This document shows positions 34,763-63,081 of a DNA stretch of 64,000 nucleotides, piece by piece. Both the position numbers and the translations under genes were made by a program. The notes under the pieces are model-generated. The model searched no databases, had not been told where the DNA came from, and saw only the letters and a program-made list of their open reading frames with translations. Position 1 is the first letter of the stretch, and every line of letters begins with the position of its first letter. This DNA is from Prochlorococcus marinus CUG1416 (GTDB lineage: Bacteria > Cyanobacteriota > Cyanobacteriia > PCC-6307 > Cyanobiaceae), in contig NZ_JAAORM010000001.1 of assembly GCF_017695965.1 (NCBI RefSeq), forward strand, positions 1 to 64,000, in the 5' to 3' direction.

Positions 34763-36349
34763 ATGAGTCAAACATCTTTAAAAAAAGAACGAGATCCTTC
34801 AATATTAATTTTAGATTTCGGATCTCAATATTCTGAATTGATTGCAAGAAGAATCAGAGAAACTAATGTTTATTCTCTTGTAGTAAGTAACTGTATTTCA
34901 ATTGAGGAAATTAATGATATTAATCCTAAAGGGATAATTTTGAGTGGAGGGCCAAATTCTGTATATGACCAAAATGCGCCTAAATGCAATGAAAAAATTT
35001 TTGATTTAGGAATCCCTATTCTTGGCATATGCTATGGAATGCAATTAATGGTTAAAGAACTTGGAGGATCCGTTACTTCAGCCACAAAAAAAGCTGAGTA
35101 TGGGAGAGCACCAATAAATATAGATTTAGAATCTGAACTCCTTTCTGATGTAAAAGATAACTCTATAATGTGGATGAGTCATGGCGATTCAATTAACTTT
35201 TTGCCTGATGGATTCAATAAAATTGCTCATACCGAGAATACACTCCATGCAGCAATTTCAAATGATAGAAAGAAATTATTTGGCGTACAATTTCATCCTG
35301 AAGTTATTCATTCAGAGTTCGGGATGACGGTAATTAAGAATTTTGTCTATAAAATTTCTAGTTGTCCGGTTGATTGGACAACCGAAACTTTTTTAGAGGA
35401 GACAATTCCCAGGATAAGAGAGCAAGTTGGTAATAAGAAAGTTTTGCTTGCCTTGTCAGGAGGAGTTGATTCGTCAACTCTTGCTTTTCTACTTAATAAA
35501 GCAATTGGAGATCAGCTTACATGCATGTTTATAGATCAAGGGTTTATGAGAAAAGGTGAACCGGAATTTTTAATGAATTTTTTTGATAAGAAATTTCATA
35601 TAAAGGTTGAATATATTAATGCTAGGGAAAGGTTCATTGCCAAATTAAAAGGGATTACTGATCCAGAACAAAAAAGGAAAATTATTGGCGAAGAATTTAT
35701 TAGAGTATTTGAAGAAGAAAGTAATAGATTGGGACCTTTTCAGTACTTAGCTCAAGGTACTCTCTATCCTGATGTTATTGAAAGTGCTGGTACTAATATT
35801 GATCCCAAGACAGGTGAGAGAATAGCGGTCAAAATCAAGAGTCACCACAATGTGGGCGGATTACCAAAAGATTTACAGTTTAAATTAGTTGAACCATTAA
35901 GAAAACTTTTTAAAGATGAAGTTCGAAAATTGGGAGCTGCTTTAGGTTTGCCTGATGAAATCATCAAAAGACATCCATTTCCAGGACCAGGATTAGCAAT
36001 AAGAATTTTGGGTGAAGTGACCAATGAAAAACTAGATTGTTTAAGAGATGCAGACTGGATAGTGAGAGATGAAATTAAAAAAGCAGGACTTTATAATGAT
36101 ATTTGGCAAGCTTTTGCAGTATTGTTACCTGTTAAAACTGTAGGAGTTATGGGTGATAAAAGAACTTATGCATGGCCAATAGTTTTACGCTGTGTATCTA
36201 GTGAAGATGGTATGACAGCAGACTGGTCAAAAATACCTTTTCAAATTTTGGAGAGAATCTCAAATAGAATCGTAAATGAAGTAGTTTCAGTTAATAGAGT
36301 TGTTTATGATATTACAAGTAAACCTCCTGGAACTATTGAGTGGGAATGA
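34763..36349 (+). CDS. guaA: GMP synthase (glutamine-hydrolysing)
   Basis: Converts XMP to GMP. The 528-residue protein has the class I amidotransferase with nucleophile Cys in [10 protein letters not shown] and FHPEV, the PP-loop [13 protein letters not shown], and the dimerisation domain ending KPPGTIEWE. Its last 19 bp before the stop (36329-36347) recur at 37484-37502, where the copy ends in TAA instead of TGA. This marks the guaA 3' end as an integration point that leaves the protein intact. Confidence 0.97.
36329..36347 (+). repeat. guaA 3'-end core repeat, left copy
   Basis: GGAACTATTGAGTGGGAAT, encoding GTIEWE up to the stop of functional guaA. Identical over 19 bp to 37484-37502. 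Proposed left core (attL). Confidence 0.85.
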
Positions 36350-36388
36350 AAAGTAGGTCATAAACCTAGTTATAGACTAAAAAAAAAT

Positions 36389-36410
36389 GGTTTCACGTGG
36401 GTTTCACGAG
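36389..36410 (+). repeat. Left arm-type 11-bp pair of element E
   Basis: GGTTTCACGTG (36389-36399) directly followed by GGTTTCACGAG (36400-36410). The unit recurs as GGTTTTACGTG near the other end. It starts 42 bp inside the core repeat and 48 bp before the HNH gene start. Confidence 0.75.
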
Positions 36411-36457
36411 TAATTTTGGTATTCTGTGAGCATCAGATTAGTATCCTTTAGATTTAA

Positions 36458-37393
36458 ATGCTAAGAGAATTCCTAAAAAATACATCTCAAGGATTAAAAG
36501 ATGGTATCCCTAGTTTTTATAAAGGTCATCCTTTAGCGATTTCTATTAGGGAAGACGGTAGGAAAATAATAGAATCACTTTTGCCAAATCATTTTGAAGA
36601 TTATAAAGTTGAAGGTTCTGCTGGTAGAGGAAGATGGGCAGATATTCCATGGGTAGCAATTTATAATTGTTCTATTACGGATAAAGCAAGTCAAGGTTAT
36701 TATCCTGTTTATTTAATTCCAAATTCAAGTAATAAAATCATATTAGGTTTAGGGCAAAGTTTTCAGGAAGCAGAGAAAGAGTATGGGAAGGATTCAAATC
36801 AAAATTTAGATAAACAGGCAGAGATAATGCGTATGAAAATTTCTGAATTTAAAAGTTTCTTTTCTTCATCTAAACCAAAAATTGAAATTAATGGGCGTTT
36901 AAATTACAAGAGTGGTCATGTTTACCATATTGAATATGATGCTGCAGACCTACCAAGCGAAGAAGAGTTAGTGGGTAATCTTCATAATATGCTTGATGCT
37001 TATGAAACATTATTTTTTCGAGGGGGTAGAGATAGTGATAATTTTTTAATTGGTGAAGAACAAAATGAGAATATCACTATTGAAGAAACATATAAGAAAA
37101 AAGTTCATTATTTAATTGAAAGACCAAGCAGTGCTCAAATAAAAAAAATTAAAAAAGAACTTGGATTTGTTTGTCAAAGTTGCAATTTTGATTTTCAAAA
37201 AATTTATGGAGATATCGGTAAAGAATATATTGAAGCACATCATTTAGTTCCAATGTCGGAATTAAAAAAGGGTGAGACTAGAAAATTAACTAAGAAAGAT
37301 TTTGCTGTTTTATGTTCAAATTGTCATCGAATGATTCATAAACTAAAAGACTCTAGTGATTTAGAACAATTAAAGAATTTGATAAAAAAATGA
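36458..37393 (+). CDS. McrB-N-like (DUF3578) plus HNH nuclease, putative type IV restriction protein
   Basis: A 311-residue two-domain protein. Residues about 25-200 match the MrcB-like N-terminal DNA-recognition domain (GSAGRGRWADIPWVAIYNCSITDKASQGYYPVYLI). The C-terminal part is an HNH nuclease with CQSCNFDF, EAHHLVPMSEL and CSNCHRMIHKL. The pairing suggests a single-chain nuclease that reads modified bases, as in type IV restriction. It is the only gene between the guaA-end repeats, so it is cargo of a probable mobile element. Modified-base specificity is inference. Confidence 0.85.
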   Translation: MLREFLKNTSQGLKDGIPSFYKGHPLAISIREDGRKIIESLLPNHFEDYKVEGSAGRGRWADIPWVAIYNCSITDKASQGYYPVYLIPNSSNKIILGLGQSFQEAEKEYGKDSNQNLDKQAEIMRMKISEFKSFFSSSKPKIEINGRLNYKSGHVYHIEYDAADLPSEEELVGNLHNMLDAYETLFFRGGRDSDNFLIGEEQNENITIEETYKKKVHYLIERPSSAQIKKIKKELGFVCQSCNFDFQKIYGDIGKEYIEAHHLVPMSELKKGETRKLTKKDFAVLCSNCHRMIHKLKDSSDLEQLKNLIKK

Positions 37394-37394
37394 T

Positions 37395-37416
37395 GATTCA
37401 ACGTAGGTTTTACGTG
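37395..37416 (+). repeat. Right arm-type 11-bp pair of element E
   Basis: GATTCAACGTA (37395-37405) followed by GGTTTTACGTG (37406-37416). The second unit differs from the left-end GGTTTCACGTG at one base; the first is degenerate. It begins directly after the HNH stop and ends 67 bp before the right core repeat. Confidence 0.65.
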
Positions 37417-37483
37417 GAAAAATTTGTGTTATAATTAACTTAAACCCATTGATATAACTGTCTTTTTTATTGACCTTTTTTGA

Positions 37484-37502
37484 GGAACTATTGAGTGGGA
37501 AT
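37484..37502 (+). repeat. guaA 3'-end core repeat, right copy
   Basis: Exact 19-bp copy of the end of guaA followed by AATTGG, so that in frame it would read GTIEWE and TAA. It probably is the displaced original end of guaA. Proposed right core (attR). Confidence 0.85.
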
Positions 37503-37562
37503 AATTGGAGTTTATTTATTAATGTTTTCCTATGCAACTAGTTTATCCGTTTTAAGGAGAAT

Positions 37563-37763
37563 CTAACCCTCTCTTAAAAGATTATGATACTTTTTAGAAG
37601 CTTTTAATTTACTAAGTCTTTTTTTAAATCTTAACTGCTTACACTCAATATCTTTAATTTCCCAAAAGCAAACAAAGCCTTCATATTCAGGATTTTTCAA
37701 GTCTTTTTCGAAAACTATGAGATTATCATTCTTTTCGTTAATAAAAGTTCCTTCTGGAAACAT
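37563..37763 (-). CDS. Small hypothetical protein
   Basis: A 66-residue protein, MFPEGTFINEKNDNLIVFEKDLKNPEYEGFVCFWEIKDIEC and a basic C-terminal helix (KQLRFKKRLSKLKASKKYHNLL). No family recognised. It lies alone between the guaA element and the RecB-like gene. Beta-rich first half and basic tail suggest a nucleic-acid or ribosome binder, but this is a guess. Confidence 0.5.
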   Translation of the reverse strand: MFPEGTFINEKNDNLIVFEKDLKNPEYEGFVCFWEIKDIECKQLRFKKRLSKLKASKKYHNLLREG

Positions 37764-37920
37764 GATTATTAAAGTACTTAGATTCAGATAACTATCTCTT
37801 TTCTGCGTGTCAAGGATCTAAATAAGATAAAAAATAAGCTAAATTTAAATAAAATTTGTCATTTTAAAATTAATATAATCTTTTATCAAAGTTTCAAACG
37901 ATTTAGATTTTAACCACTAT

Positions 37921-37978
37921 TATTTTGAATGAGCAAAAGAAATTTTCTATTTTCATAGTTATTCAAAATAGCTTTTTT
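37921..37978 (+). terminator. Inverted repeat with oligo-T
   Basis: TATTTTGAAT (37921-37930) and ATTCAAAATA (37961-37970) are perfect inverted repeats with a 30-bp loop, followed by GC and eight T. It could terminate rightward transcripts coming from the guaA element or serve as a leader hairpin of the nuclease-like gene 25 bp on. The large loop weakens the terminator reading. Confidence 0.4.
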
Positions 37979-38002
37979 TTATAAGATGATATGTAAAAAG
38001 TG

Positions 38003-38716
38003 ATGAGCGGTATTATTAAATTAAGTAGAACTACTGTTGAAAAATATCTTAGTTGCCCAAGATGTTGCGTACTTGATAAAAAATATAAAATAAAACCACC
38101 ATCATTACCATTCACCTTAAATATAGCTGTAGATAATTTATGTAAAAATGAATTTGATTATTACAGAAGAATTCAGGAGCCTCATCCTTTAATTATTGAA
38201 CATGGTCTTGATGCTATTCCTTTCAAACACAAAGATTTAGAACGTTGGAGAAGTAATTTCCAAGGTATAAGATATAAGTCAATAGAACATAATTATGATT
38301 TTGGTGGAGCTGTGGATGATATTTGGCAGAAAAAAAATGGTGAGCTTATCATAGTTGATGTAAAAGCAACATCTAGAAATAATTTTGATTGGTCCGAGAC
38401 TTTTAATAAATACGAATATGCAAAGGCTTATAAGAGACAATTGGAAATGTATCAGTGGCTATTTAAAAAAAACGGTTTTCAAGTTGCTAATGAAGCTTAT
38501 CTTTTATATTTTAATGGAAAGAAAAATGAAGAGGCCTTTAATAATCAATTAAATTTTGATGCACATTTAATTAGATTGAATTGTTCTTCATCATGGGTAG
38601 AAAATAAGATAATCGATACAGTCAATTTATTACGATCCGACATTTTCCCCAAACCTTCATTAAATTGTGAATACTGTAATTATTTAAAAAAGCGTTGGCA
38701 GTTATCAATAACTTAA
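38003..38716 (+). CDS. Stand-alone RecB/Cas4-like PD-(D/E)XK nuclease, putative Fe-S
   Basis: A 237-residue protein of the PD-(D/E)XK superfamily. An N-terminal YLSCPRCCVLDKKYK and a C-terminal CEYCNYLKKRW supply the Cys ligands expected of an Fe-S Cas4/AddB-type nuclease. The catalytic core is GGAVDDIW then ELIIVDVKATS (Asp, then DxK) and the motif-IV-like QLEMYQWLFKKNGF. No CRISPR array or cas gene is in the window, so a role in repair or phage defence is inference. A GTG at 38000 directly precedes the chosen ATG. Confidence 0.75.
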   Translation: MSGIIKLSRTTVEKYLSCPRCCVLDKKYKIKPPSLPFTLNIAVDNLCKNEFDYYRRIQEPHPLIIEHGLDAIPFKHKDLERWRSNFQGIRYKSIEHNYDFGGAVDDIWQKKNGELIIVDVKATSRNNFDWSETFNKYEYAKAYKRQLEMYQWLFKKNGFQVANEAYLLYFNGKKNEEAFNNQLNFDAHLIRLNCSSSWVENKIIDTVNLLRSDIFPKPSLNCEYCNYLKKRWQLSIT

Positions 38717-38797
38717 AACTCATAGGAAATATTTTTGATATTTCTGGAAAATTAGTGAATAAAAGATAATCTTTAATTAGATTATTAATTTAGACTA

Positions 38798-39406
38798 TTG
38801 ATAAAAGCGAAAAACTCTGAAAGAAAGATAACTAATCATCTTCAACAAGATGTAGTCAAAGTATCTGGTAAAACAATTTTCATTAATCCTTTTTTGTATT
38901 GGCGTAGATTTGATGAAAATACCAATAGATGGCTTAGAGAACCCGGTCAAATGTCAGAGGATCAAATTCAACCTAATAGAAATCGCTTTTATCCAGAAAT
39001 AGAGTGGACTGAGTTAAGTAATGAGCAAAAGCTTATAAAAGATGCAACTGTTGAGATGTTTTTAAAAACTCTTGAATTGATAAGTACATTTCACCCTTAT
39101 CTTAGTTCAGGTCAGCTACTAGAAGTTGAGAGAAAAATGGCGATTATAAAAAAGATTCCTTTTGAAAAGTGGGTTACAAAATCTTTCGCAAAAAAAGCAA
39201 GATTATTAGAAAATGAAAAAAGAAAATTTCAAAGAGAAAGGTTTTTTAGTAGTTGGAGGGAATGGCTTATGCTTGAAAATACTCAACAAGTGATTTTCCC
39301 ATTAATCGTCACGATAATTATTTCAGCATTCATTGGCTGGTCTTTAGGAATATCTAAAAATAGTTGTAATCCTTATTTTGAACAAAATTTAGAGCAGTTA
39401 AATTAA
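38798..39406 (+). CDS. Hypothetical protein with C-terminal membrane anchor
   Basis: A 202-residue protein from a TTG. The N-terminal 150 residues are soluble with a segment INPFLYWRRFDENTNRWLREPGQMSEDQIQPNRNRFYPEIEWTELS and charged helices. A single hydrophobic helix (about residues 167-185, VIFPLIVTIIISAFIGWSLGI) is followed by a short tail. No family recognised. A tail-anchored topology with a cytoplasmic domain is likely. Confidence 0.65.
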   Translation: MIKAKNSERKITNHLQQDVVKVSGKTIFINPFLYWRRFDENTNRWLREPGQMSEDQIQPNRNRFYPEIEWTELSNEQKLIKDATVEMFLKTLELISTFHPYLSSGQLLEVERKMAIIKKIPFEKWVTKSFAKKARLLENEKRKFQRERFFSSWREWLMLENTQQVIFPLIVTIIISAFIGWSLGISKNSCNPYFEQNLEQLN

Positions 39407-39491
39407 TTTGTTAATCTTATTTCTTCAGTATCTAACTTAATATTATTTTGATAAAAATTTTTTTTAATTTAAGATTGGAATATATAGAACA

Positions 39492-39659
39492 ATGAATTTT
39501 AAAAATATAACTTTTATGAATCAAAAATACACTTCAAATGATATTCAAAATGATGAGTTTACTCATGATAATCAAGATATTGATTATCAAAATTTAATAA
39601 CTAGACTTAAAGAGATAAGCACAACAATTACTCTATTGGAGAAAACAATATATAGATAA
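39492..39659 (+). CDS. Small acidic ORF upstream of the PBP gene
   Basis: ATG to TAA encodes 55 residues, MNFKNITFMNQKYTSNDIQN and an Asp/Asn-rich middle, ending in a helix LITRLKEISTTITLLEKTIY. It ends 11 bp before the PBP start and fits between the two neighbouring genes without overlap. No family is recognised. Position and a plausible amphipathic tail are the only support. Confidence 0.45.
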   Translation: MNFKNITFMNQKYTSNDIQNDEFTHDNQDIDYQNLITRLKEISTTITLLEKTIYR

Positions 39660-39670
39660 ATTTAATATCT

Positions 39671-41461
39671 TTGAAAAAAAGTAGTTCTAACAAAAAACTT
39701 ATTTCATTAAAAAGACAACCATTAGTCTTACTGATTTTTTCTTCTATTTCTTTTTTATTGATTTTATTAAGGTTGATTTTTTTACAACTCTTAAATTATG
39801 AATCTTTTAAAAAAATGTCTGATGAAAACAGAATTAGACTTATTGCTTCTCAACCAATACGGGGCAGAATACTTGATAAAAATGGTTATGTTTTAGCAGA
39901 TAGTAGAGTTAAATATTCTTTAATAATAAAGCCTCAATCTGTTAAAGAAAGTAGTTGGGAAAACCATAAATCAAGTATTTCTGATTTGTTAAATCTTGAT
40001 AGTAATTTAATTCAAAAAAAATATTTTGATGGTAAAAAAAATCAAAAACTTTCAGTAACTATTCTTGATGACTTGAATGTTGATCAATTAATCAAATTCA
40101 AGGAAAATGATGATAATTTATTTAGTTTTGAAATCGCGACGAAATTAATTAGAAATTATCCCTATCAATCTGTTGCTGCTCATGTAATTGGTTATAGTCA
40201 GCCAATCACTGAATCAGAATATAACTTTTTATCTAAGAAGGGTTATAAATTAAATGACTTAATTGGGAGAACTGGAATTGAATATGTTTATGAAGATTTT
40301 ATAAGAGGTGAATGGGGTGGAGAAATGGTTGAAGTAAATTCTTTAGGCAAATTTCAAAGATCATTGGGTATTAAACCTTCAAGGCAAGGTAATGATATTG
40401 AATTAACTATTGATATGAACTTGCAATTAGTTGCGGAGGAAGCACTGCGAGACAAAAAAGCTGGAGCGATAATAGTGATGGATCCAAGAGATGGTGCAAT
40501 AAGAGCAATGGCAAGTAAACCTACCTTTGACTTAAATTTTTTCTCAAAGGATTTTAAGCCTGAGACAGAATATAATAAGCTATTTAATTCTTCTGAAAAA
40601 CCTCTTTTTAATAGAGCATTAAATGCTTATGATCCAGGAAGTGTTTGGAAAATTGTAACGGCTTTGGCGGGCTTAGAAAGTGGAAAATTTCCTATTGATA
40701 CAATGCTAGAAACAAAACCATGTATTACTTATGGTAGTCAATGTTTTAGAGAACATAATGATTTAGGCTTTGGTGTAATAGGTTATGAAGATGCTTTAAG
40801 AGTTTCAAGCAATACTTTTTTTTATCAAGTCGGATATGGTGTAGGCGTTGATGAAATTTATGAGGTTTCAAAAAAGCTAGGTTTCAATTCTTTATCCGGA
40901 ATTGAAATTTCTGAACAAGAAAACATGGGCTTAGTAGCTAATAGTCAATGGGCTAAGGATGGTAGAGGATGGGGAGAACCAGGTAGAACTCCCTGGGTTC
41001 CCGAAGATATTGCGAGTATGTCTATTGGACAATTTGTCGTTCAAGTAACTCCAATTCAAATAGCTAGAGCATATGCAGCGATTGCTAATGGAGGTTATCT
41101 AATTACTCCCCATTTAACTAAAAAAGATGGAGAAAGTCTTTTAGATAAAAAACGTATTAAAATTGACATTGCTCCAAAAAATATTCAATTGATAAAAAGT
41201 GGCCTTAGAAAAGTGGTTGAGTCTGGAACGGGGGTATCAATTAATTATGGAGTTACAAATTTACCTCCAGTTTCAGGTAAAACAGGAACTGCTGAAGATG
41301 GTGAAGGTGGCTTAGATCACGCTTGGTTCGTTTGCTTTACTCCTTCGGAAAAGAGTGAGTTGGTTGTAGTTGCTTTTGCACAAAATACTCCAGGTGGAGG
41401 GTCTGTACATGCACTCCCTATGGCAAGAGAAATTTTAAAAGTTTGGAATGAAAAAAAATGA
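39671..41461 (+). CDS. mrdA: Class B penicillin-binding protein, PBP2/MrdA-like
   Basis: A transpeptidase for elongation of the cell wall. The 596-residue protein has an N-terminal membrane anchor (about 17-38), the pedestal motif RGRILDKNGYVLADS and LIGRTGIEYVYEDFIRGEWGGEMVEVNSLG typical of PBP2. Catalytic motifs are in order: SVWK (SxxK) in AYDPGSVWKIV, SSN (SxN) in VSSNTFFYQ and KTGT in VSGKTGTAEDG. The start is a TTG. No rodA gene is adjacent, so the PBP2 rather than FtsI label rests on motif form. Confidence 0.9.
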   Translation: MKKSSSNKKLISLKRQPLVLLIFSSISFLLILLRLIFLQLLNYESFKKMSDENRIRLIASQPIRGRILDKNGYVLADSRVKYSLIIKPQSVKESSWENHKSSISDLLNLDSNLIQKKYFDGKKNQKLSVTILDDLNVDQLIKFKENDDNLFSFEIATKLIRNYPYQSVAAHVIGYSQPITESEYNFLSKKGYKLNDLIGRTGIEYVYEDFIRGEWGGEMVEVNSLGKFQRSLGIKPSRQGNDIELTIDMNLQLVAEEALRDKKAGAIIVMDPRDGAIRAMASKPTFDLNFFSKDFKPETEYNKLFNSSEKPLFNRALNAYDPGSVWKIVTALAGLESGKFPIDTMLETKPCITYGSQCFREHNDLGFGVIGYEDALRVSSNTFFYQVGYGVGVDEIYEVSKKLGFNSLSGIEISEQENMGLVANSQWAKDGRGWGEPGRTPWVPEDIASMSIGQFVVQVTPIQIARAYAAIANGGYLITPHLTKKDGESLLDKKRIKIDIAPKNIQLIKSGLRKVVESGTGVSINYGVTNLPPVSGKTGTAEDGEGGLDHAWFVCFTPSEKSELVVVAFAQNTPGGGSVHALPMAREILKVWNEKK

Positions 41462-41483
41462 TATTAATTTTTGGTTTTAAAGT

Positions 41484-42008
41484 TTATGTTTTTAATTTTT
41501 TCATTTGTAAAAGTCTTTGAATTATATCTTCAATAGTTTTGGTATCTATCGGTTTACTATATGAGGACAAAAGTTGTCTGCCTAATACTTGACTTCCTAA
41601 ATGCACTAATTGAATGCGTAATGAAGTAAGCAGTTCTAACCCTATGCCACCAGAAAATGTTGCAATTGCAATTGGTTGACCATTAAATAAGTTTCTAAAG
41701 TCATCTCCCGAAATAGAGAGCCATGCTATGAAGTTCGAGAGAATGGGAGGTATAGATCCATTATATTCAGGAGCGCAAATCACCCACCTTTCTATTGCGA
41801 AAAGCTTTTTTTTTAATTCTTTTATTTCACTTGGAATATTTTCTTTGCTGTGAATTCTTGGATTAAATAATGGAATATCAAGAGTGGTAAGATCTAAAAT
41901 TTCAGACCTTATTTTAAGTTCATTACTTTTTTCAAGAAATTTTTCAGAAAGTTCTAGATTTTTACCACAACTAGCCGTAATGATTATTAGGTCTTTTGTT
42001 TCAGTCAT
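41484..42008 (-). CDS. NAD(P)H-dependent FMN reductase family protein
   Basis: A 174-residue flavodoxin-fold protein: IIITASCGKNLELSEKFLEK (phosphate loop region) and APEYNGSIPPILSNFIAWLS, the signature of the SsuE/ChrR/azoreductase group. It lies 17 bp downstream of flv1 on the same strand, so it may be co-transcribed with the two flavodiiron genes and supply or take reduced flavin there (inference). Confidence 0.85.
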   Translation of the reverse strand: MTETKDLIIITASCGKNLELSEKFLEKSNELKIRSEILDLTTLDIPLFNPRIHSKENIPSEIKELKKKLFAIERWVICAPEYNGSIPPILSNFIAWLSISGDDFRNLFNGQPIAIATFSGGIGLELLTSLRIQLVHLGSQVLGRQLLSSYSKPIDTKTIEDIIQRLLQMKKLKT

Positions 42009-42025
42009 AAATTAGATACATAAAT

Positions 42026-43828: not shown

Positions 43829-43844
43829 TTTAAAGACTTATTTT

Positions 43845-45620: not shown

Positions 45621-45739
45621 AGAATAATTCGCTTTATAAAATAACTTTAGTTATATAGAATATAGATCCGCGTGATCATTTTTGCGAAATAACCGAAATT
45701 ACGCTTTTCTTGAATTTTTATTCTTCTTATTCTGGATAA

Positions 45740-50331: not shown

Positions 50332-50451
50332 TTTATTTCTTAATAATTAAAATGTTTTTGAAAATAAATCAAAACAATATCTTTTATTTTAATGATTACT
50401 TGCCAAGTTACCACCCAAAAGTTGAATATACATAGAGTGATTATTAACTAA

Positions 50452-50910
50452 ATGACCAAAGAGAGAACCTTTATTGCAATTAAACCAGATGGAGTTCAAA
50501 GAGGATATGTTGCTGAGATTATTGGCAGATTTGAAAAAAAAGGATTTAAATTGGTTGGATTAAAGCAATTAATCCCTTCAAAAGATCTTGCTCAAAATCA
50601 TTATGGTGTACATAGAGAAAGACCCTTTTTTGGTAATTTAGTAGACTTTATCTCAAGTGGTCCTGTTGTAGCAATGGTGTGGGAAGGCGAAGGAGTTATT
50701 TTGAGTGCTAGAAAACTAATAGGTGCAACAAAACCTCTTGAAGCAGAGCCTGGAACAATTAGAGGTGATTTAGCTATTGATATAGGGAGGAATATTATTC
50801 ATGGTTCTGATGGAGAAGATACTGCAAAATTTGAAATTGATCTATGGTTTAACGATGAGGAATTATGTGAGTGGGAAACTTCTGATTCGAAATGGCGATC
50901 TGAAAATTAA
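50452..50910 (+). CDS. ndk: Nucleoside diphosphate kinase
   Basis: Exchanges gamma-phosphates among NTPs and NDPs. The 152-residue protein is complete: [30 protein letters not shown] and the phospho-His in [16 protein letters not shown]. Its stop is 3 bp from that of the convergent oxidase gene. Confidence 0.97.
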
Positions 50911-50913
50911 AAT

Positions 50914-52023: not shown

Positions 52024-52102
52024 TTAATATTTAATATTTTTATTTGTGTTTTGGTCCTCTTTTCCTTTATATCCAATAATATTAATAAAGAGACTTTTAA
52101 TA

Positions 52103-53575: not shown

Positions 53576-53579
53576 AGCT

Positions 53580-54197
53580 TCAAAGAAGCTCTCTTATAGT
53601 ATTGATCCATTTATTTTGATCATCTGAATTATCTAAAATAATATCTGAGAGTTTACTTTTTTCTTCAAAACTTAATTGAAGATTTATGGTTTCATATGCT
53701 TCTTTTTCGCTAATTTTATCTCGTGTGATAAGTCTTTTTTGTTGTAGTTCTCTAGGGCATTTAACTAACCATATTTCAGTGCAAATATCTTCAAATTTTG
53801 CTTCAAATAATAATGGAATAACCATTACTATAGTTTGATTATTTTTGTATTGACTGCATTCTTGAATCATTTTTTCTTTAATTAAGGGGTGAAGTAGTTT
53901 CTCAATCCATTTTTTACTTTCTGAATGTTTAAAAATTATGTTTCTTAAAAGTTTTCTGTTTATTGCTTTCTTTGAATTGTTCGTATTATCAATTATTTGA
54001 TTTCCAAAATAGTCTAGAATTTTTTTATATCCATATGTGTTTGGTTTGATTAATTCTCTTGATAAATTATCTGCATCTAATATCGGTATTTTGTTATGTT
54101 TTCTAATGTAATTTGTGATGGTTGTCTTCCCACTCGCGATACCTCCTGTTAAACCAATTCTTCTTTGGTTAGTTTTTAATTGTTGAAGAATATCCAT
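53580..54197 (-). CDS. coaE: Dephospho-CoA kinase
   Basis: Last step of coenzyme A synthesis. The 205-residue P-loop kinase has RRIGLTGGIASGKTTITNYI, LDADNLSREL and VIPLLFEAKFEDICTEIWLVKCPRELQQKRL. It converges on gatB with a 4-bp gap and is divergent from argJ. Confidence 0.95.
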   Translation of the reverse strand: MDILQQLKTNQRRIGLTGGIASGKTTITNYIRKHNKIPILDADNLSRELIKPNTYGYKKILDYFGNQIIDNTNNSKKAINRKLLRNIIFKHSESKKWIEKLLHPLIKEKMIQECSQYKNNQTIVMVIPLLFEAKFEDICTEIWLVKCPRELQQKRLITRDKISEKEAYETINLQLSFEEKSKLSDIILDNSDDQNKWINTIRELL

Positions 54198-54274
54198 ATA
54201 TTTAATAATAATCTAATTTTCTATTTCTTTAGTATTAAAGGGAAGTTAGTATGAATTAAAAATATAAAAAAAGA

Positions 54275-55513
54275 TTGAGCCAGTCTGATTCCACTTGGTC
54301 GTTTGTTGATGAAGGTAATGAAACACCTAAGGGTTTTCTTTTCGCTGGGATTTCGGCTGGATTAAAAGCTTCTAATAAAAAAGATTTAGCACTTATACTC
54401 GCTCCAGAAGGAAGTATTGTTAGTGGAATGTTTACCCAATCAATAGTTCGCGCTTCTTGTGTCGATATTTGTGAGGAAAGGATTAAAAAATCTTCAGGTT
54501 TTGTTCGAGCAATACTAATTAATTCTGGTCAAGCAAATGCATGTACAGGAAATCTTGGAATTCAGCATTTTCAAATTGCTACGGCAAAGATTGCAGAACT
54601 TTTAGGAATAAAAGAAGAAGAAGTTTTAATGTGCTCAACTGGTGTAATTGGTGTTCCTATACAAATAAAAGATTTAGTAAAAAATTTACCGAATTTAGTT
54701 AGTGATTTAAAAGTTAATAACTTTCAAAATGCAGCAGAAGCAATTTTAACGACGGATTTGACTTTGAAAAAAGTTTTAATAGAGACGATTATTCAAGGTA
54801 GAAAGATAAAAATAGCAGGATTAGCAAAAGGATCAGGAATGATTTATCCCAATATGGCTACAATGCTCGCTTTCCTGACCTGTGATGCAGGTATTGAGAA
54901 AAAAGAATGGGACAAAATGATTTCTATTGCTGTAAAAAAATCTTTTAACGCAATATCAGTTGATGGAGAGACAAGCACAAACGATTCTTTTGTTGGAATA
55001 AATGCAGGAAATAAAATTGATAAAAGATTTTTGCCAATTATTCAACAAGGAATCGACATTGTATGTCAAAACTTGGCAAAAAATATTGCTAGGGATGGAG
55101 AAGGGGCAAATTGTTTATTAGAAGTTTTAGTTCAAGGAACAAAAAATACTGATGATGCAATTATCGTTGCTAAATCTATATGTAATTCTGCATTGGTAAA
55201 AACTGCAATACATGGCTGTGATCCTAATTGGGGAAGAATTATTTCTGCTGCAGGTAATTCTGGCGTTAAATTCAATCTAAATGATGTTGACTTACATATA
55301 GGTAACCATAAGATTTTGGAAAAGGGAAAGTTAAATAAATATGATTCGCAAAAAGTCACAGACTATATTAGGTCCAAAATGAAAGGTAGATATTTAGTAG
55401 ATGATATTGTACAAATTATGATTAATCTAAACTCTGGCGAATTCAAAGGCACAGCTTGGGGATGTGATCTTTCTAAAAAGTATGTTGAAATAAATAGCGA
55501 ATATACTACATAG
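54275..55513 (+). CDS. argJ: Bifunctional ornithine acetyltransferase / N-acetylglutamate synthase
   Basis: Recycles acetyl groups in arginine synthesis. The 412-residue precursor self-cleaves at the conserved KGSGMIYPNMATMLAFLTCD, where the Thr of ATML becomes the nucleophile of the beta chain. It has NSGQANACTG and a C-terminal GCDLSKKYVEINSEYTT. The start is a TTG (54275). The 17 bp at 55493-55509, coding NSEYT, is repeated four more times over the next 5 kb, marking the gene end as an insertion site. Confidence 0.96.
   Translation: MSQSDSTWSFVDEGNETPKGFLFAGISAGLKASNKKDLALILAPEGSIVSGMFTQSIVRASCVDICEERIKKSSGFVRAILINSGQANACTGNLGIQHFQIATAKIAELLGIKEEEVLMCSTGVIGVPIQIKDLVKNLPNLVSDLKVNNFQNAAEAILTTDLTLKKVLIETIIQGRKIKIAGLAKGSGMIYPNMATMLAFLTCDAGIEKKEWDKMISIAVKKSFNAISVDGETSTNDSFVGINAGNKIDKRFLPIIQQGIDIVCQNLAKNIARDGEGANCLLEVLVQGTKNTDDAIIVAKSICNSALVKTAIHGCDPNWGRIISAAGNSGVKFNLNDVDLHIGNHKILEKGKLNKYDSQKVTDYIRSKMKGRYLVDDIVQIMINLNSGEFKGTAWGCDLSKKYVEINSEYTT
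55493..55509 (+). repeat. argJ 3'-end core repeat, copy 1 (within argJ)
   Basis: AATAGCGAATATACTAC, the reference copy inside the functional argJ end. Copies 2-5 are at 56896, 58883, 60299 and 60484. Confidence 0.85.
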
Positions 55514-55559
55514 TCTGAGATCGACTGTGCTGGAATCGAAGTCAAGGAATAATTAAATG

Positions 55560-55581
55560 ATATGACACTAATATGACAGTA
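55560..55581 (+). repeat. Left arm-type pair of element A
   Basis: ATATGACACTA (55560-55570) then ATATGACAGTA (55571-55581), head to tail, 50 bp from core copy 1. Confidence 0.75.
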
Positions 55582-55626
55582 GATTTTAACGAATTTATTA
55601 ACTTCAAAAAGTTTATTTTAAAAATT

Positions 55627-56604
55627 TTATTTAAGTTTATAGATTGCTAAATCTTTTGACTTAATTTCCTTAAGTGCAATTTTTTCAAGTCTTTCTAATC
55701 TTGATAATAGTTGCTTGTTTTTCTCCTCAAGAGATTCAATTTTGTTCTTGAAATTTTCTTTCTCTTTCATACTAATTTGAGTTGGTTTTATGGCCTTACC
55801 TAATTTCCATACAAATCCTGCGCGTGCAGAAAAAGTATCTTCAAAATCCCCAGCATAATCTTGACCAGGCATAGTCATAGACGCCGCATAATTTACTGAA
55901 AGTTTTTCATTTATTTTAGAAGCACAACCTCCCGAAAAAGCAAAATCCCCTCCGTGGGTTCCACTCCCCAAACCGCAAGCAAGAGTAGTTTCAGTTGGCA
56001 CAGTTGGTAAACCTGTAAGGGCAGCACTTAATGCTCCAATATTATTAATAGATTGCTCAACATCTCTTCCATTAATTAATAATTTGCTTCCATTTGTGAT
56101 ATTTATTGGTACTACTTTTCCATCTGCATTTGTTCCCCATAATTGTTGCTCATTTGCTGTCTCTTTCATTTTCAAGGAATTTTTTCCAATACTTGTAATC
56201 CCTGTTGATGCATCTGTTCTAATTAATTCATTTATGCCTTTTGGATAAAGAATCATATCCTGAGTAGGCGCATTACTTAATTTCGTAATCGAATTATTTT
56301 TTAAATCGTATTCGAGAAGGTATTCAGAAGAGTTTGCGTTGCTGGCGTTCTTTTCATAAGTAGAAAAATAAACTTTCCCATTGTATTCATCATAAATTCC
56401 ATCTTCAATATCAGCATGTATACCTACATCACTTCCACTATATGAATTCAATGTTGTAGATGTTCCATTTGATGTAACTCCATAAAATGTAACTGTGTTT
56501 CCTGAGGTTGTTGAAGTAAGAAATTGATATTCATTTGCTTTAGCAACTTCAAAGAAAGGAATTAATAAACTTAACAGAGATAAAATAGAAAATAACTTTT
56601 TCAT
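55627..56604 (-). CDS. Exported YadA-anchor-like protein with a terminal coiled coil (cargo A)
   Basis: A 325-residue protein. A signal peptide (MKKLFSILSLLSLLIPFFEVAKA) is followed by a beta-rich region (TVTFYGVTSNGTSTTLNSYSG) and then a trimeric-autotransporter-like anchor: INNIGALSAALTGLPTVPTETTLACGLGSGTHGGDFAFSGGCASKINEKLSVNYAASM ending AGFVWKLG. About 50 residues of coiled coil (KENFKNKIESLEEKNKQLLSRLERLEKIAL) come after the barrel strands, where ordinary YadA proteins stop. Two Cys occur in adjacent strands. A longer reading starts at 56634. Paralogue of the gene at 57020-58519. Confidence 0.75.
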   Translation of the reverse strand: MKKLFSILSLLSLLIPFFEVAKANEYQFLTSTTSGNTVTFYGVTSNGTSTTLNSYSGSDVGIHADIEDGIYDEYNGKVYFSTYEKNASNANSSEYLLEYDLKNNSITKLSNAPTQDMILYPKGINELIRTDASTGITSIGKNSLKMKETANEQQLWGTNADGKVVPINITNGSKLLINGRDVEQSINNIGALSAALTGLPTVPTETTLACGLGSGTHGGDFAFSGGCASKINEKLSVNYAASMTMPGQDYAGDFEDTFSARAGFVWKLGKAIKPTQISMKEKENFKNKIESLEEKNKQLLSRLERLEKIALKEIKSKDLAIYKLK

Positions 56605-56756
56605 TTTCAAAATATATTTATCTAGTTTTATCAAAGAAGTATTTTAAAAACTTAATTATTGCGAATTTGACTCAAAGTATCGTTAAATTAATTTGCTTTG
56701 TTACCACTTTATTTAGTGTGATTAATTTTGTTAATTGTTACTTACTCAGTGGTTGG

Positions 56757-56840
56757 ATATGACACTAATATGACACTGCTTCAGTGGTATCAAGAGGTTT
56801 GATTAGGTAGCATTTACAATATGACACCAATATGACACTA
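56757..56840 (+). repeat. Right arm-type repeats of element A (two pairs)
   Basis: Pair one: ATATGACACTA (56757-56767) and ATATGACACTG (56768-56778). Pair two: ATATGACACCA (56819-56829) and ATATGACACTA (56830-56840). The units match those of the left end and keep orientation. The 290-bp gap 56605-56895 otherwise holds no gene. Confidence 0.75.
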
Positions 56841-56895
56841 ATTAAATCCTTAAAATTAATTGGTATGACTGATTTTTACCCTTTATGTTTTTATC

Positions 56896-56912
56896 AATAG
56901 CGAATATACGAC
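56896..56912 (+). repeat. argJ core repeat, copy 2 (A/B junction)
   Basis: AATAGCGAATATACGAC, one mismatch to argJ. From here 103 bp (56896-56998) is closely similar to 60299-60401. Confidence 0.8.
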
Positions 56913-56984
56913 GTAGAAAATGTGATGTTTGGGATTAGTTGATATGACTATATAAAATCTCTAAAAGAATACACACCTTTTGCA

Positions 56985-57006
56985 ACTGTGACAATACTGT
57001 GATTAT
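56985..57006 (+). repeat. Left arm-type pair of element B
   Basis: ACTGTGACAAT (56985-56995) then ACTGTGATTAT (56996-57006), 72 bp from core copy 2 and just before the cargo stop. Confidence 0.75.
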
Positions 57007-57019
57007 TATTTCAGTTCAA

Positions 57020-58519
57020 TTATGGAAGTTTTATGGTTGCTAAATCTTGAGATTTAGACTTGCCAAGTGCTACTTTTTCTAGTCGTTCTAGTCTTGCTAA
57101 AAGTGCTTTATTTTGAACAATAATGTTTATATTGTTTGCTTTTAGATCACTTATTTCTTGCTTCAATTCTTCTTTTTCTTTCATACTGATTTGAGTTGAT
57201 TTTTTTAATTCACCTAGTTTAAAAACAAATCCCGCTTTAATAACCCCATTATCTAAGGTGCCTTCTCCATAGGATTTTGAACCACCAAAAACATATGATC
57301 CTCCAGCATTTATATCAACTCTTGCATTTACTTTAGAAGCACAACCAAAACCTAAAGCATACCTACTGCTATAAGCACCAGTTCCAACGCCACAACTTAG
57401 TTTGGATTCTTTTGATGTTTGAGGAAGTGCGGTTAGTGCTGCTGTAAGTGCTGTTGAACCCGCTACACCTTCTCCGAGATTTTTGATGTTCGAAGTATTA
57501 GAAGAAATATTGGAAGTATTAGTAGAGATATTATTTTTATTTGTTGTTACTTGTGCGCTATCCCCTGCTATTACTTCTACACCATCAATTAATAACTTAC
57601 TACCATAAATGTTTATTGGAATTTTGTTATTACTATCATCTTCTGCCCATAAATGATGAACTTTTGTCCCATCACTAAGTGTTGAATAATCTTCAGGAGT
57701 AATTAAAGAGTTTTTACCAATATGAATATTCCCATCTGCTTGTTTAGTAATCATTGGATTACCATCTATGCTTAATCCTTCAGCAGTAATGTCAATATCA
57801 TTTCCATCAGCACCTATTTGGATTGATCCATCAGAATTTTTAGTAAAAATTGCTTGACCATCTATATTTAATCCGTCTGCTACTACATCAACATCATTCC
57901 CATCAGCACCAATTTGAACTGAACCATCACTATTATTTTTTACCAAAGTTGCACTATTAGTTCCCCCTGTGCTTATTCCATCATCATCTATTCTTAAGAG
58001 TTCATCTGTACCAGATCCACCAAGTGAGATGAATTTAGTATCAGTTGCACCACAAGAAGCACTAGTTGTATTACATTTTTTATCTGCAAGATTTTCCATC
58101 TTTACAGGTATATCAATAAACATTGGACTTCCAGAACCAGGAAGATTGGTGATATTTGTAAATCCTTCGAAAGCATTCGTATCCATATCAAATATCCTAA
58201 TTCTTCTTTGTGCATTTCCACTTCTTGGTGGCTCTAAAAAATAAATCTTCCCTTTTTGTTGATCAACAGTATAGTCCGTTGCACTAAAAGAGTTTGTTGT
58301 AGAGTCAGGAAATATATTGGATATGATAATACTAGCTGCGCCGTCAGCGGCTAATTTATAAAGGTGGACTTGAGTTTCGCTACCTGTATTTTCTGAGGAA
58401 ACAAAATATCCTAAGTCTGATGTAGCAGTTGAAACTTCTCCAGCTAAGGAAGATAAGGGTGTTATTAATAAAGTCGAACTGAATAACGAAGTGAATATTT
58501 TCTTTAGTGTTTTTAGCAT
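57020..58519 (-). CDS. Exported YadA-anchor-like surface protein with terminal coiled coil (cargo B)
   Basis: A 499-residue protein. Order: signal peptide (to about residue 27), beta-rich region with VYFLEPP-like segments, two 32-residue repeats of the form NSDGSIQIGADGNDIDITAEGLSIDG, a heptad stalk (NNISTNTSNISSNTSNIKNLGEGV), a YadA-like anchor (ALTAALTALPQTSKESKLSCGVGTGAYSSRYALGFGCASK to AGFVFKLG) and then a coiled coil of about 55 residues with KNKALLARLERLEKVAL-like sequence. Probably trimeric and outer-membrane. The coiled coil after the barrel is unusual. Adhesion or phage interaction is inference. Confidence 0.78.
   Translation of the reverse strand: MLKTLKKIFTSLFSSTLLITPLSSLAGEVSTATSDLGYFVSSENTGSETQVHLYKLAADGAASIIISNIFPDSTTNSFSATDYTVDQQKGKIYFLEPPRSGNAQRRIRIFDMDTNAFEGFTNITNLPGSGSPMFIDIPVKMENLADKKCNTTSASCGATDTKFISLGGSGTDELLRIDDDGISTGGTNSATLVKNNSDGSVQIGADGNDVDVVADGLNIDGQAIFTKNSDGSIQIGADGNDIDITAEGLSIDGNPMITKQADGNIHIGKNSLITPEDYSTLSDGTKVHHLWAEDDSNNKIPINIYGSKLLIDGVEVIAGDSAQVTTNKNNISTNTSNISSNTSNIKNLGEGVAGSTALTAALTALPQTSKESKLSCGVGTGAYSSRYALGFGCASKVNARVDINAGGSYVFGGSKSYGEGTLDNGVIKAGFVFKLGELKKSTQISMKEKEELKQEISDLKANNINIIVQNKALLARLERLEKVALGKSKSQDLATIKLP
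57735..57930 (-). repeat. Tandem 96-bp coding repeat in cargo B
   Basis: Two consecutive copies of a 32-residue unit (SDGS.QIGADGND.D..A.GL.IDG....TK) and a truncated third beginning QADGNIHIGK. DNA identity between the first two copies is high. Such passenger repeats are expected to vary in number. Confidence 0.75.
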
Positions 58520-58684
58520 AATTTTTATACGTAGGGATACTTTATAAATATATAAATTTTGTTAATTTAAGACTTTTTAAATTTTAAATATCACCTAAAT
58601 CAATTTTTTTATTAAAGAAATTTTTTTTAAGTAATAGGAAATTCCCATCCCCCCTCTTAATTCTGAATATCCACCTTTGGTAGT

Positions 58685-58808
58685 AATGTGATTATTCTGC
58701 GATTACGCGTAAGATCACAGAAATTAATCTTAATTATTTCAATGAATTTTATTTAAAAATCTAAAACTGTGATTATTATTTTCCCGACTGTGATTATGGT
58801 GTGATTAT
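58685..58808 (+). repeat. Right arm-type repeats of element B
   Basis: Pair: AATGTGATTAT (58685-58695) and TCTGCGATTAC (58696-58706). Single: ACTGTGATTAT (58766-58776). Pair: ACTGTGATTAT (58787-58797) and GGTGTGATTAT (58798-58808). Same unit and orientation as the left end. The gene-free stretch 58520-59013 consists of these arms, the core repeat and the left end of element C. Confidence 0.72.
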
Positions 58809-58882
58809 TTTCTAAAAATTTACTTAAGTGCTAGCAATGTATTACAGCAAGGTGTATATACTATTTGCCCAAGGTTGAAATA

Positions 58883-58899
58883 AATAGCGAATATACAAC
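58883..58899 (+). repeat. argJ core repeat, copy 3 (B/C junction)
   Basis: AATAGCGAATATACAAC, one mismatch to argJ. The match extends left: GTTGAAATA at 58874-58882 equals argJ, giving 23 identical bases that would code VEINSEYT-like residues. Confidence 0.82.
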
Positions 58900-58947
58900 T
58901 TAACGCTAAAACTTAGTTATATCAATAGATTTGAAGATAATTAATAT

Positions 58948-58969
58948 GTTGCTTACGGTCTGCTTACAT
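58948..58969 (+). repeat. Left arm-type pair of element C
   Basis: GTTGCTTACGG (58948-58958) then TCTGCTTACAT (58959-58969), 48 bp from core copy 3. Confidence 0.65.
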
Positions 58970-59013
58970 TAAATTAGGACTTATTATTACTAATTTAATT
59001 TAGTCGTACTAGG

Positions 59014-59181
59014 TTAAACATATCCATTAACTATGGTTGGATGTTCTTTGTTTTTGAACATTTTTCTATAATCATCATGCAATCTTTCAGTTGCTAATTT
59101 TCTTTTCTTCATTGCATCTCTGATTAAATCCATCTCATTGAATGTTCGATTGAGAATGGTGAATGGAGTAGTTAGTTTCAT
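59014..59181 (-). CDS. Tiny ORF with strong ribosome-binding site (MKLTTPF...)
   Basis: Encodes 55 residues, MKLTTPFTILNRTFNEMDLI, then a basic helix RDAMKKRKLATERLHDDYRKMFKNKEH. GGAGG lies 5 bases before the ATG, a perfect Shine-Dalgarno that is rare in this genome. The N terminus resembles that of the next ORF (MKLFNQFNILPRYL). No known family. Confidence 0.6.
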   Translation of the reverse strand: MKLTTPFTILNRTFNEMDLIRDAMKKRKLATERLHDDYRKMFKNKEHPTIVNGYV

Positions 59182-59219
59182 AAAACCTCCTTTTTTAATA
59201 AAGACTAAAAATTAATAAC

Positions 59220-59402
59220 TCAGTCGCAGTAAATTAAACAATTTTGATTTGTTGGATGTTCTCTACATTCTTTCTCCCAAAAGTTTTGAAACTCAGGGGT
59301 GCATTTCTCAAGTTCTTTTGGGGTTTCGTTTAGATTTAATCCTGCATAATTAAACGCAGTTAAGTATCTTGGAAGAATGTTAAATTGATTGAATAGTTTC
59401 AT
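59220..59402 (-). CDS. Tiny Cys-rich ORF with strong ribosome-binding site (MKLFNQF...)
   Basis: Encodes 60 residues starting MKLFNQFNILPRYLTAFNYAG, with four Cys in the C-terminal half (CTPEFQNFWEKECREHPTNQNCLIYC). AGGAGG is 5 bases before the ATG. It probably shares a transcript with the ORF at 59014-59181. The Cys pattern could form two disulfides or bind metal. No known family. Confidence 0.62.
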   Translation of the reverse strand: MKLFNQFNILPRYLTAFNYAGLNLNETPKELEKCTPEFQNFWEKECREHPTNQNCLIYCD

Positions 59403-59454
59403 AAGACCTCCTAGATCTATATCTATATTGTCCTCCTATTAACTTGAAATTCAT

Positions 59455-59622
59455 AGAGTATTATTACCCGAGTAGAAGTGCTTTGTGGTTGTACCGACTA
59501 TCTTTTTCCATTCACTAGGAGTAGAAATAATTCAGGAGTCAAAAGCACTTCATCGACTTTGTGGACAGCGAGGTGCACAAGACTCGAAGAGGGCAAACAA
59601 ATGCCCTCTTATTTTACTTTTA
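59455..59622 (+). ncRNA. Candidate structured small RNA with terminator
   Basis: GAAGTGCTTT (59475-59484) pairs perfectly with AAAGCACTTC (59542-59551), closing a domain. A 9-bp perfect hairpin, AAGAGGGCA (59587-59595) with TGCCCTCTT (59602-59610), is followed by ATTTTACTTTT, a clear rho-independent terminator on the plus strand. An ORF reading of 62 residues here has no family look. The 309-bp gene gap is thus best read as an sRNA gene. Confidence 0.6.
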
Positions 59623-59711
59623 GTAAACTTATACTGATTCTCTTCGCTAAATTCTATCGATATTAGCATTTAGGATATGAATGGTTAGATTTATCAAAAT
59701 GGGAAAAAATT

Positions 59712-60005
59712 ATGTTTGTAAGTATTGACTTATGTTTAGTCCCTATTGGAGTTGGAACTTCCCTATCTCCTTATATAAAAGAGTGTATTGAAGTTATTAA
59801 AAATGAAGGACTTAACTATGAATTGGGAGCGAATGGAACTGCAATAGAGGGAGATTGGGATAAAGTATTTGAATGTGTTAAAAAGTGCCATAAAACAATT
59901 CATTCAAAAGGTGCTCCAAGAATTTATACAACGATGAAAGTAAATACAAGAACTGATAAAGAACAAAAATTCTCAGATAAAGTAAAAAGTGTATTAGAGA
60001 ATTAA
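59712..60005 (+). CDS. MTH1187/YkoF-like thiamine-binding family protein
   Basis: A 97-residue protein matching the MTH1187 family: VSIDLCLVPIGVGTSLSPYIKECIEVIKNEGLNYELGANGTAIEGDWDKVFECVKKCHKTIHSKGAPRIYTTMKVNTRTDK. Members form ferredoxin-like tetramers that bind thiamine-type ligands. The stop shares a base with the next ATG (TAATG), so a 42-residue ORF is coupled. In this genome it sits within a probable mobile module. Confidence 0.82.
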   Translation: MFVSIDLCLVPIGVGTSLSPYIKECIEVIKNEGLNYELGANGTAIEGDWDKVFECVKKCHKTIHSKGAPRIYTTMKVNTRTDKEQKFSDKVKSVLEN

Positions 60006-60133
60006 TGGAAAGAGAAAGTGATTACGATAATGATGGATTAGATCCATCCGAAGAATATTTCAGAAGGAAGAAAAAAGGTAATGATGAGGATACCTATTTC
60101 CCTCTAGAAGAATCAGAACCACCTCATTATTAA
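60005..60133 (+). CDS. Small acidic ORF coupled to the MTH1187-family gene
   Basis: Encodes 42 residues, MERESDYDNDGLDPSEEYFR then RKKKGNDEDTYFPLEESEPPHY. Its ATG overlaps the upstream stop by one base. Highly charged and probably disordered. No known family; coupling and composition support translation. Confidence 0.5.
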   Translation: MERESDYDNDGLDPSEEYFRRKKKGNDEDTYFPLEESEPPHY

Positions 60134-60161
60134 TAAATTAGTTAATCTAATTTATATGTTC

Positions 60162-60233
60162 TGTTGCTTACAGTTGCAAAGTAAAAATTTAGTAATAACT
60201 TAATTTTCAACTATCACTTACAATGTGCTTACA
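60162..60233 (+). repeat. Right arm-type repeats of element C
   Basis: TGTTGCTTACA (60162-60172) with a degenerate partner GTTGCAAAGTA (60173-60183), then TATCACTTACA (60212-60222) and ATGTGCTTACA (60223-60233). Units resemble the left-end GTTGCTTACGG. Confidence 0.6.
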
Positions 60234-60298
60234 GTTGTATTCACTTATGAAACTTAGTTATCGCAGTTAATTATAGTGATTATCTTCATATAGAAATG

Positions 60299-60315
60299 AA
60301 TAGCGAGTATACGAC
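60299..60315 (+). repeat. argJ core repeat, copy 4 (C/D junction)
   Basis: AATAGCGAGTATACGAC, two mismatches to argJ and one to copy 2. Confidence 0.78.
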
Positions 60316-60387
60316 GTAGTTTCTGTGATCTTTGGGATCACTTGATATGACTATATAAAATCTCTAAAAGAATACACACCTTTTGCG

Positions 60388-60409
60388 AATGTGATAATAC
60401 TGTGATTAT
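60388..60409 (+). repeat. Single arm-type pair of element D
   Basis: AATGTGATAAT (60388-60398) then ACTGTGATTAT (60399-60409). It is the only pair in the element and serves as both left and right arm. Confidence 0.75.
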
Positions 60410-60483
60410 TTTCTAAAAATCCACTTAAGTGATAGCAACGTATTACAGCAAGGTGGATATACTAAATGCCAAAGGTGGAAATT

Positions 60484-60500
60484 AATAGCGAATATACTAC
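60484..60500 (+). repeat. argJ core repeat, copy 5 (right end of the array)
   Basis: AATAGCGAATATACTAC, identical to the copy in argJ. It overlaps the stop of the leftward small membrane protein gene (CTA at 60497-60499), so the pre-insertion site was probably argJ meeting that gene tail to tail. Confidence 0.85.
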
Positions 60501-62599: not shown

Positions 62600-62753
62600 T
62601 TTCAAGGATTGGACTTTTTAATACGATAAGTTAATTTATAGCCAATCTTCTAAGTATTTATACTTATAAAATTTGAAAAATTCTTTTTAATACAGGCAAT
62701 TGCAGCAATATTTACAAACTAAGAACTTATCTAATACAACTTCTGAGTTATTT

Positions 62754-63015: not shown

Positions 63016-63081
63016 TGGACATTTATATTCTGACAGGCAAAATGAGTATTGAATAGTTTTTTTATTAAGTTTTTATCGTAT

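Follow-up and report, generated by a model that had tools for sequence, protein, structure and literature searches.

Integrases of the lambda, L5 and Tn916 type are heterobivalent, acting on a core and on repeated arm sites of about 10–11 bp on both sides of it. A different economy is that of the cis-mobilizable elements (CIMEs) of site-specific accretion, related to ICESt1: they lie in tandem at a gene 3' end and keep attL and attR, but have neither integrase nor transfer genes, and the excerpt of the source describes them as decayed relatives of integrative and conjugative or integrative and mobilizable elements, mobilised in cis (PMC5704250). The ssrA islands of Dehalococcoides (vcr-GI) likewise form arrays at one gene end, many of them without an integration module (PMC3146451). 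Here we describe five short modules, A to E, at the 3' ends of guaA and argJ in the first 64 kb of contig 1 of Prochlorococcus marinus CUG1416 (genome 1.67 Mb; this stretch is the window, and all coordinates refer to the whole of it). They are almost certainly precise integrative cassettes with arm-like sites, and the best explanation overall, which we consider likely, is that they are CIME-like passengers of several families of integrase elements.

Prochlorococcus is among the most abundant phototrophs, and the route of its variable genes, above all those for phage defence and the cell surface, is an open question. As in CIMEs (PMC5704250), the modules form tandem arrays and retain attL and attR at the gene end; neither integrase nor transfer genes were found among the open reading frames (ORFs) and Pfam matches of A–E, in agreement with the initial annotation, which had seen no enzyme in them; and a related autonomous element uses the same att sites. 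Unlike the CIMEs of that excerpt, the cassettes range from 0.14 kb up, far outnumber integrases and show several arm codes at one site. Moreover, whereas CIMEs are described as relatives of conjugative elements, no conjugation genes were recognised among the commonest Pfam matches of 69 cargo or backbone representatives, or among the tested genes of the integrase-bearing loci L050, L098 and L101, in a search that was not exhaustive (L-numbers label individual loci in relatives' genomes or in viral contigs). The Dehalococcoides islands differ in using a serine recombinase and a tmRNA target and in being larger, and arm-type sites are not mentioned for them (PMC3146451). By analogy, the cassettes may be viewed as a variant of the known integrase-less accretion elements that would work as CIMEs and the ssrA islands do.

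Other elements share the genus or the target. Tycheposons, in the excerpt of PMC10872708, are bounded by tRNA genes, span 4–200 kb and have a tyrosine recombinase. The elements described here resemble them in comprising cargo-carrying elements of this genus that have a tyrosine recombinase, one of which, L101, also encodes a DUF5906 protein, and differ in docking at the ends of protein genes and in including cassettes without the enzyme. We rejected tycheposon identity for A–E, going by the features given in that excerpt: the window has no tRNA gene, only a tmRNA gene, the module borders are guaA and argJ ends, and there is no tyrosine recombinase in A–E. Integrative elements such as ATE-1, the Brucella IncP island and Gisul2 use the same guaA 3' end with a tyrosine integrase (PMC5704250); they belong to other phyla and have their own integrase, and the excerpt describes no integrase-less arrays with matching arms. 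Among the searched papers that contain both Prochlorococcus and guaA, no title concerns such insertions; the primary tycheposon paper lay outside this set and may describe them.

Architecture of the modules

E lies alone 3' of guaA and A–D follow one another 3' of argJ (Table 1), and every module is flanked by copies of the 3' end of its target gene, ACTATTGAGTGGGA for guaA and AATAGCGAATATAC for argJ. The initial annotation had proposed that at both sites this core repeat is combined with head-to-tail pairs of 11-bp units, and a unit-by-unit check confirmed this shared architecture. Its finer claims fared less evenly. A pair at every module end, with the same unit at both ends, is what A has, but the right end of C is weak and D has one shared pair. 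One pair on the left and two on the right, as proposed for A, B and C, is true of A, whereas the right end of B has one pair plus single or degenerate units and that of C is degenerate. One pair at each end could be upheld neither for E, whose right end consists of a degenerate unit and an intact one and which is without the second left pair of its relatives, nor for D, which consists of the left end of B up to the arms and the right end of B from the arms on, joined so that one arm pair serves both ends. D carries no gene, and other genomes have gene-less elements of 137–185 bp at either site. Such solo elements are exactly what an element would leave if its arm pairs recombined with each other.

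The 11-bp period recurs in other genomes of the genus. In a test of element ends in about 100 loci, counting tandem pairs with ≤1 mismatch, pairs of period 11 were found at 26 of 84 argJ ends and 46 of 126 guaA ends, as against 0–3 for periods 10 and 12–14; periods 8–9 gave 2–13, shorter words matching more easily, and control windows inside elements gave 0 to 0.15 pairs per round. Units vary between elements, and the left and right units of one element agree (mean similarity 8.0 and 8.5 of 9, versus 6.5 and 6.9 when permuted), a match reached by none of 5000 permutations at each site. Some hybrid elements have different units at their two ends (L038, L063, L108), possibly from fusion of neighbours. 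At argJ, TGTGATTAT units stand at +89 and nearly all other units at about +61 to +69.

The arms are conserved in homologous elements and are not scattered, so neither of the findings that the initial annotation had named as refuting its reading was obtained. With ≤3 mismatches allowed, the A, E and B pairs are confined to their modules in the 1.67-Mb genome, where a reversed-pattern control gave 0 matches. Across 151 genomes, 15 of the 16 matches to the A pair lie downstream of argJ, on the same strand and within about 3 kb, and 46 of the 49 matches to the E pair lie downstream of guaA, on the same strand and within about 11 kb; the exceptions sit on contigs where argJ or guaA, respectively, was not found (matches compared by hand with gene positions; reversed-pattern controls gave one and three matches overall).

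Occupancy of the two gene ends

Both gene ends are insertion hot spots across the genus. Occupancy was scored at argJ in 60 genomes and at guaA in 40 loci, four of which had been picked for having an integrase. The native flank comes directly after argJ in 30 of the 60 relatives, one of these empty sites, with a diverged flank, being called by eye; the other 30 hold an insert (one cut by a contig end), and inserts with both ends visible finish in a core copy 19 bp before the native flank. Only two of the 40 guaA loci look plainly empty, and most have at least one core-bounded element. Median element size is 1.4 kb at argJ and 2.3 kb at guaA, from an automatic listing that includes false boundaries at guaA. 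Copies of C in other genomes are 92–96% identical, against mostly 88–92% for argJ, the flank and the next gene, as expected if C moves horizontally.

Homologous recombination of the conserved gene ends and flanks might by itself swap modules, with no site-specific recombinase involved, given that the flanks are highly similar across the genus. The insertions, however, are precise at the core, each with a duplicated core and arm sites, and integrase elements use the same cores; we regard this account as very unlikely.

As a separate observation, the argJ core is recoded to AACTCGGAATATAC in L045, L047, L079 and L089, and all four sites are empty. Recoding (CTCGG) was considered as a form of immunity, but the 9-kb element of L138 has the recoded allele as its right core, and this reading was therefore dropped. 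In L048 (G142:C12, oriented 394–2428) the argJ 3' region is present twice and the downstream region is partly repeated, which reflects either a real duplication or an assembly error.

Integrase-bearing relatives at the same docks

A Pfam search placed integrases close behind guaA and argJ in a few genomes. The initial annotation had anticipated larger elements with the same 11-mers beside an integrase gene, and several different recombinases; such elements exist at both cores, and their enzymes comprise a single integrase family at guaA and two types at argJ that are unlike each other. At guaA, L098, L099, L100 and L101 encode tyrosine recombinases of 454–491 aa, 0.2–1 kb inside the left core, and have the arms ATCACACAC, TCACACA, GGTTTCCCGTG and CTCACCC. 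Solved Int structures, among them 3nkh and 6en0, match the integrase catalytic part. Of 300 family genomes, 12, from seven genera, have a relative of the L100 integrase, 9 of the 12 directly behind guaA, and loci of this type typically have arm pairs about 41 and 101 bp after guaA. In two further guaA integrase elements, L158 and L161, the arms read GTTTCACGT(G/A), as does the unit of module E (GGTTTCACGTR). Integrase-less elements commonly share units with integrase-bearing ones, such as GGTTTCCCGTG in L102 and L107 and TGCTCACC in L112 and L129.

At argJ, L050 is a 4.7-kb element with a 457-aa integrase and a serine resolvase; L050 and L172 have GTGTGATTTAT pairs (GTGTGATT arms, of TGTGATT type), which match integrase-less L034 and are akin to the arms of B and D. 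In L138, of about 9 kb, a 527-aa integrase lies at the right end. The TTTGTTCACA-like arms of this element stand at +65/+76 (left) and near −139 and −78 (right), so that it shares with A and C the layout of one on the left and two on the right. As in heterobivalent systems, these autonomous elements have repeated arm-type sites on both sides of the core, beside int; unlike those of lambda, L5 or Tn916, the putative arm sites of the cassettes lie on elements without the enzyme.

The window's genome has, as far as was found, only two tyrosine recombinases, both on other contigs (389 aa, G000:C2:249451; 425 aa, C4:143713), and the 389-aa one is near-universal in the genus. One of these residents could in principle move all cassettes, but a single enzyme would need no multiple element-specific arm codes, no tandem 11-mers of the cassette families lie near the resident enzymes, and dedicated integrases occupy the very sites; we hold this to be very unlikely. 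The 389-aa gene (L001, G000:C2:249451-249906) adjoins a cobalamin adenosyltransferase-like gene.

A viral origin was also considered and rejected, as no relatives of the L050 or L100 integrases were found in viral contigs or phage records. Viral contigs contain no match to the E pair, and the sole exact viral matches to the A pair are in L154 and L155, near-identical contigs of an unrelated phage without an argJ core, which were discarded as a source. This exact 22-mer, ATATGACACTAATATGACACTA, stands at L154:12880-12901 and L155:10331-10352 (IMG/VR), about 1.8 kb from a tyrosine integrase gene in L155, and is either a chance match or a convergent arm site.

Mirror rule and a proposed arm code

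The guaA elements have their integrase on the left, with two left arm pairs (+54, +115) and one right pair (−106), and L138 has its integrase on the right, with two arm sets on the right and one on the left. The rule is that the integrase-proximal end has two pairs and the distal end one, and integrase-less cassettes follow whichever pattern their site shows. Such anatomy is evidence for cassettes made from the attachment sites of these elements, and the derivation of the cassettes from integrase elements at the same docks is, in our judgement, very probable.

Among 11 guaA integrases, arm similarity correlates more closely with identity over residues 1–60 (Spearman 0.60; reached in 1 of 2000 permutations) than with identity over the catalytic part (0.44; 38 of 2000). 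This supports, rather than proves, recognition of the arm units by the integrase N-terminus, the sample being small and related. Alternatively, the pairs might be bound by an excisionase (directionality factor) or by some host protein, since excisionases likewise bind short direct repeats. However, the units are present at either end, with two pairs close to the integrase gene and one far from it, like integrase arms, and they vary with the integrase N-terminus more than with the catalytic domain; an excisionase or host protein is unlikely.

Proposed mechanism

We propose that A–E are non-autonomous cassettes, in which cargo would lie between the attachment ends of tyrosine-recombinase elements whose integrase gene is missing. 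Each attachment end would combine a core, the target gene 3' end, with 11-bp arm-type sites; a cassette would typically have a single pair at one end and two pairs at the opposite end. Several element families would use two attB sites, the guaA and argJ 3' ends, and the integrase of each family would recognise, through its N-terminal domain, an arm code specific to that family. Since every insertion rebuilds a core, cassettes would accrete there in tandem. They would move when a rare autonomous element supplies an integrase of the matching family, either in trans or, if a neighbour is excised together with them, in cis, and cargo would be exchanged or lost via recombination between ends and arms, D being B reduced to its ends. 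We infer that the integrase binds the arms and acts on the cassettes in trans, both excising and integrating them, and that some vehicle transfers them.

We lean, with reserve, towards the view that the cassettes are still mobilised in trans today. Several points weigh against this view and the mechanism behind it: (i) movement rests on inference, none having been observed; (ii) the window's genome is without any of the three integrase types (the guaA family and the two argJ types), and integrases are rare in the genus sample (about 2 of 126 argJ and 4 of 126 guaA loci), so that the modules here may be immobile residents; (iii) no exact integrase partner was found for the A unit ATATGACACTA or the C unit TTGCTTACA, for which there is a match in layout and a similar unit, TTTGTTCACAG; (iv) many of the sampled genomes are partial assemblies and may miss elements; and (v) the covariation of arms and integrases could partly reflect shared ancestry.

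The absence of a matching integrase from this genome also suits decayed remnants, that is, modules that entered with their own integrase, lost it and are now immobile, their tandem order recording past accretion only. So do the vast excess of integrase-less cassettes over integrases, the degenerate arms at the right ends of E and C, and the three hybrids. Yet in many cassettes the arms and cores of both ends are intact and matched, with the integrase gene cleanly gone; cassette C is patchy among genomes and more alike than the flanking genes; and the space is filled by open cargo genes. We consider decay somewhat unlikely and retain the passenger reading.

More tentatively, the whole may be a two-tier system: a genus-wide pool of very small integrase-less cassettes would be kept mobile by rare, diversified integrase elements, and an evolving 11-bp code would set which cassettes each integrase carries. 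Defence and surface genes would then be shuffled at two fixed docks, an integron-like economy run by lambda-like integrases in trans. The cassettes offer two precise docks, candidate enzymes and a signature by which they can be recognised, namely the target-gene core together with 11-mer pairs particular to each element, and their movement can thus be tested directly. Arm units and integrase N-termini have, furthermore, diversified in parallel at one shared core, a natural data set for arm-site specificity, which would allow predicting which integrase mobilises which cassette.

Cargo and other features

Genus-wide, cargo at both sites includes type IIG and other restriction-modification proteins, SRA-HNH, NotI-like, helicase and methyltransferase genes, as well as YadA-like proteins, PEBP and metabolic genes. 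The features of the window are collected in Table 1.

Table 1. Positions of cores, arm units and cargo of modules A–E in the window
Feature	Position	Strand	Remarks
Module E	36332..37500		alone, 3' of guaA
Left core of E, guaA 3' end ACTATTGAGTGGGA	36332..36345	+	kept as guaA 3' end in 40 genomes
E left arm pair GGTTTCACGTG GGTTTCACGAG	36389..36410	+	unique in genome; same unit beside guaA integrases L158, L161
E cargo: MrcB_N + HNH nuclease, likely modification-dependent restriction	36458..37393	+	Pfam MrcB_N 5.6e-38, HNH 2.1e-6
E right arm: degenerate unit + intact GGTTTTACGTG	37395..37416	+	intact unit 37406-37416
Right core of E	37487..37500	+	
Modules A–D	55493..60497		in tandem, 3' of argJ
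Left core of A, argJ 3' end	55484..55512	+	core copy at 55493; argJ 3' end conserved in 60 genomes, empty in 30
A left arm pair ATATGACACTA x2	55560..55581	+	
A cargo: 335-aa protein, weak YadA_anchor match	55627..56634	-	E 0.0014, below Pfam cut-off; homologous to B cargo
A right arms	56757..56840	+	two pairs, 56757-56778 and 56819-56840
Core A/B	56887..56915	+	core copy at 56896
B left arm pair ACTGTGACAAT ACTGTGATTAT	56985..57006	+	
B cargo: 499-aa YadA-anchor protein	57020..58519	-	E 1.2e-7, above cut-off
B right arms	58685..58808	+	pair 58787-58808; single or degenerate units at 58685, 58766
Core B/C	58874..58902	+	core copy at 58883
C left arm pair TTGCTTACGGT CTGCTTACATT	58949..58970	+	same family TTGCTTACAGT in L034, L086
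C small ORFs	59014-59181, 59220-59402, 60005-60133	-, -, +	
C cargo: thiamine-binding-protein family, 97 aa	59712..60005	+	Pfam Thiamine_BP 6.1e-35
C right arms: degenerate TTGCTTACA units	60164..60235	+	around 60164 and 60214-60235; weak
Core C/D	60290..60318	+	core copy at 60299
D single shared arm pair AATGTGATAAT ACTGTGATTAT	60388..60409	+	gene-less 185-bp element
Right core of argJ array, then native flank	60475..60503	+	core copy at 60484; same flank directly follows argJ in relatives' empty sites

Part of module C is found with other cargo in L036, L049, L086 and L091, which suggests a C-type backbone with exchangeable cargo. A non-coding stretch in C, 59430-59640, ends in a terminator-like hairpin (AGAGGGC...GCCCTCT, then T-rich); an Rfam scan of the argJ array, including this stretch, gave no match. 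To the right of the guaA dock, the conserved gene at 38000-38713 encodes a PD-(D/E)XK/Cas4-like nuclease, a homologue of which is cargo in L049. At 62737-63046, 2.2 kb past the argJ array, is the gene for tmRNA (ssrA), which elsewhere often serves as an integration target.

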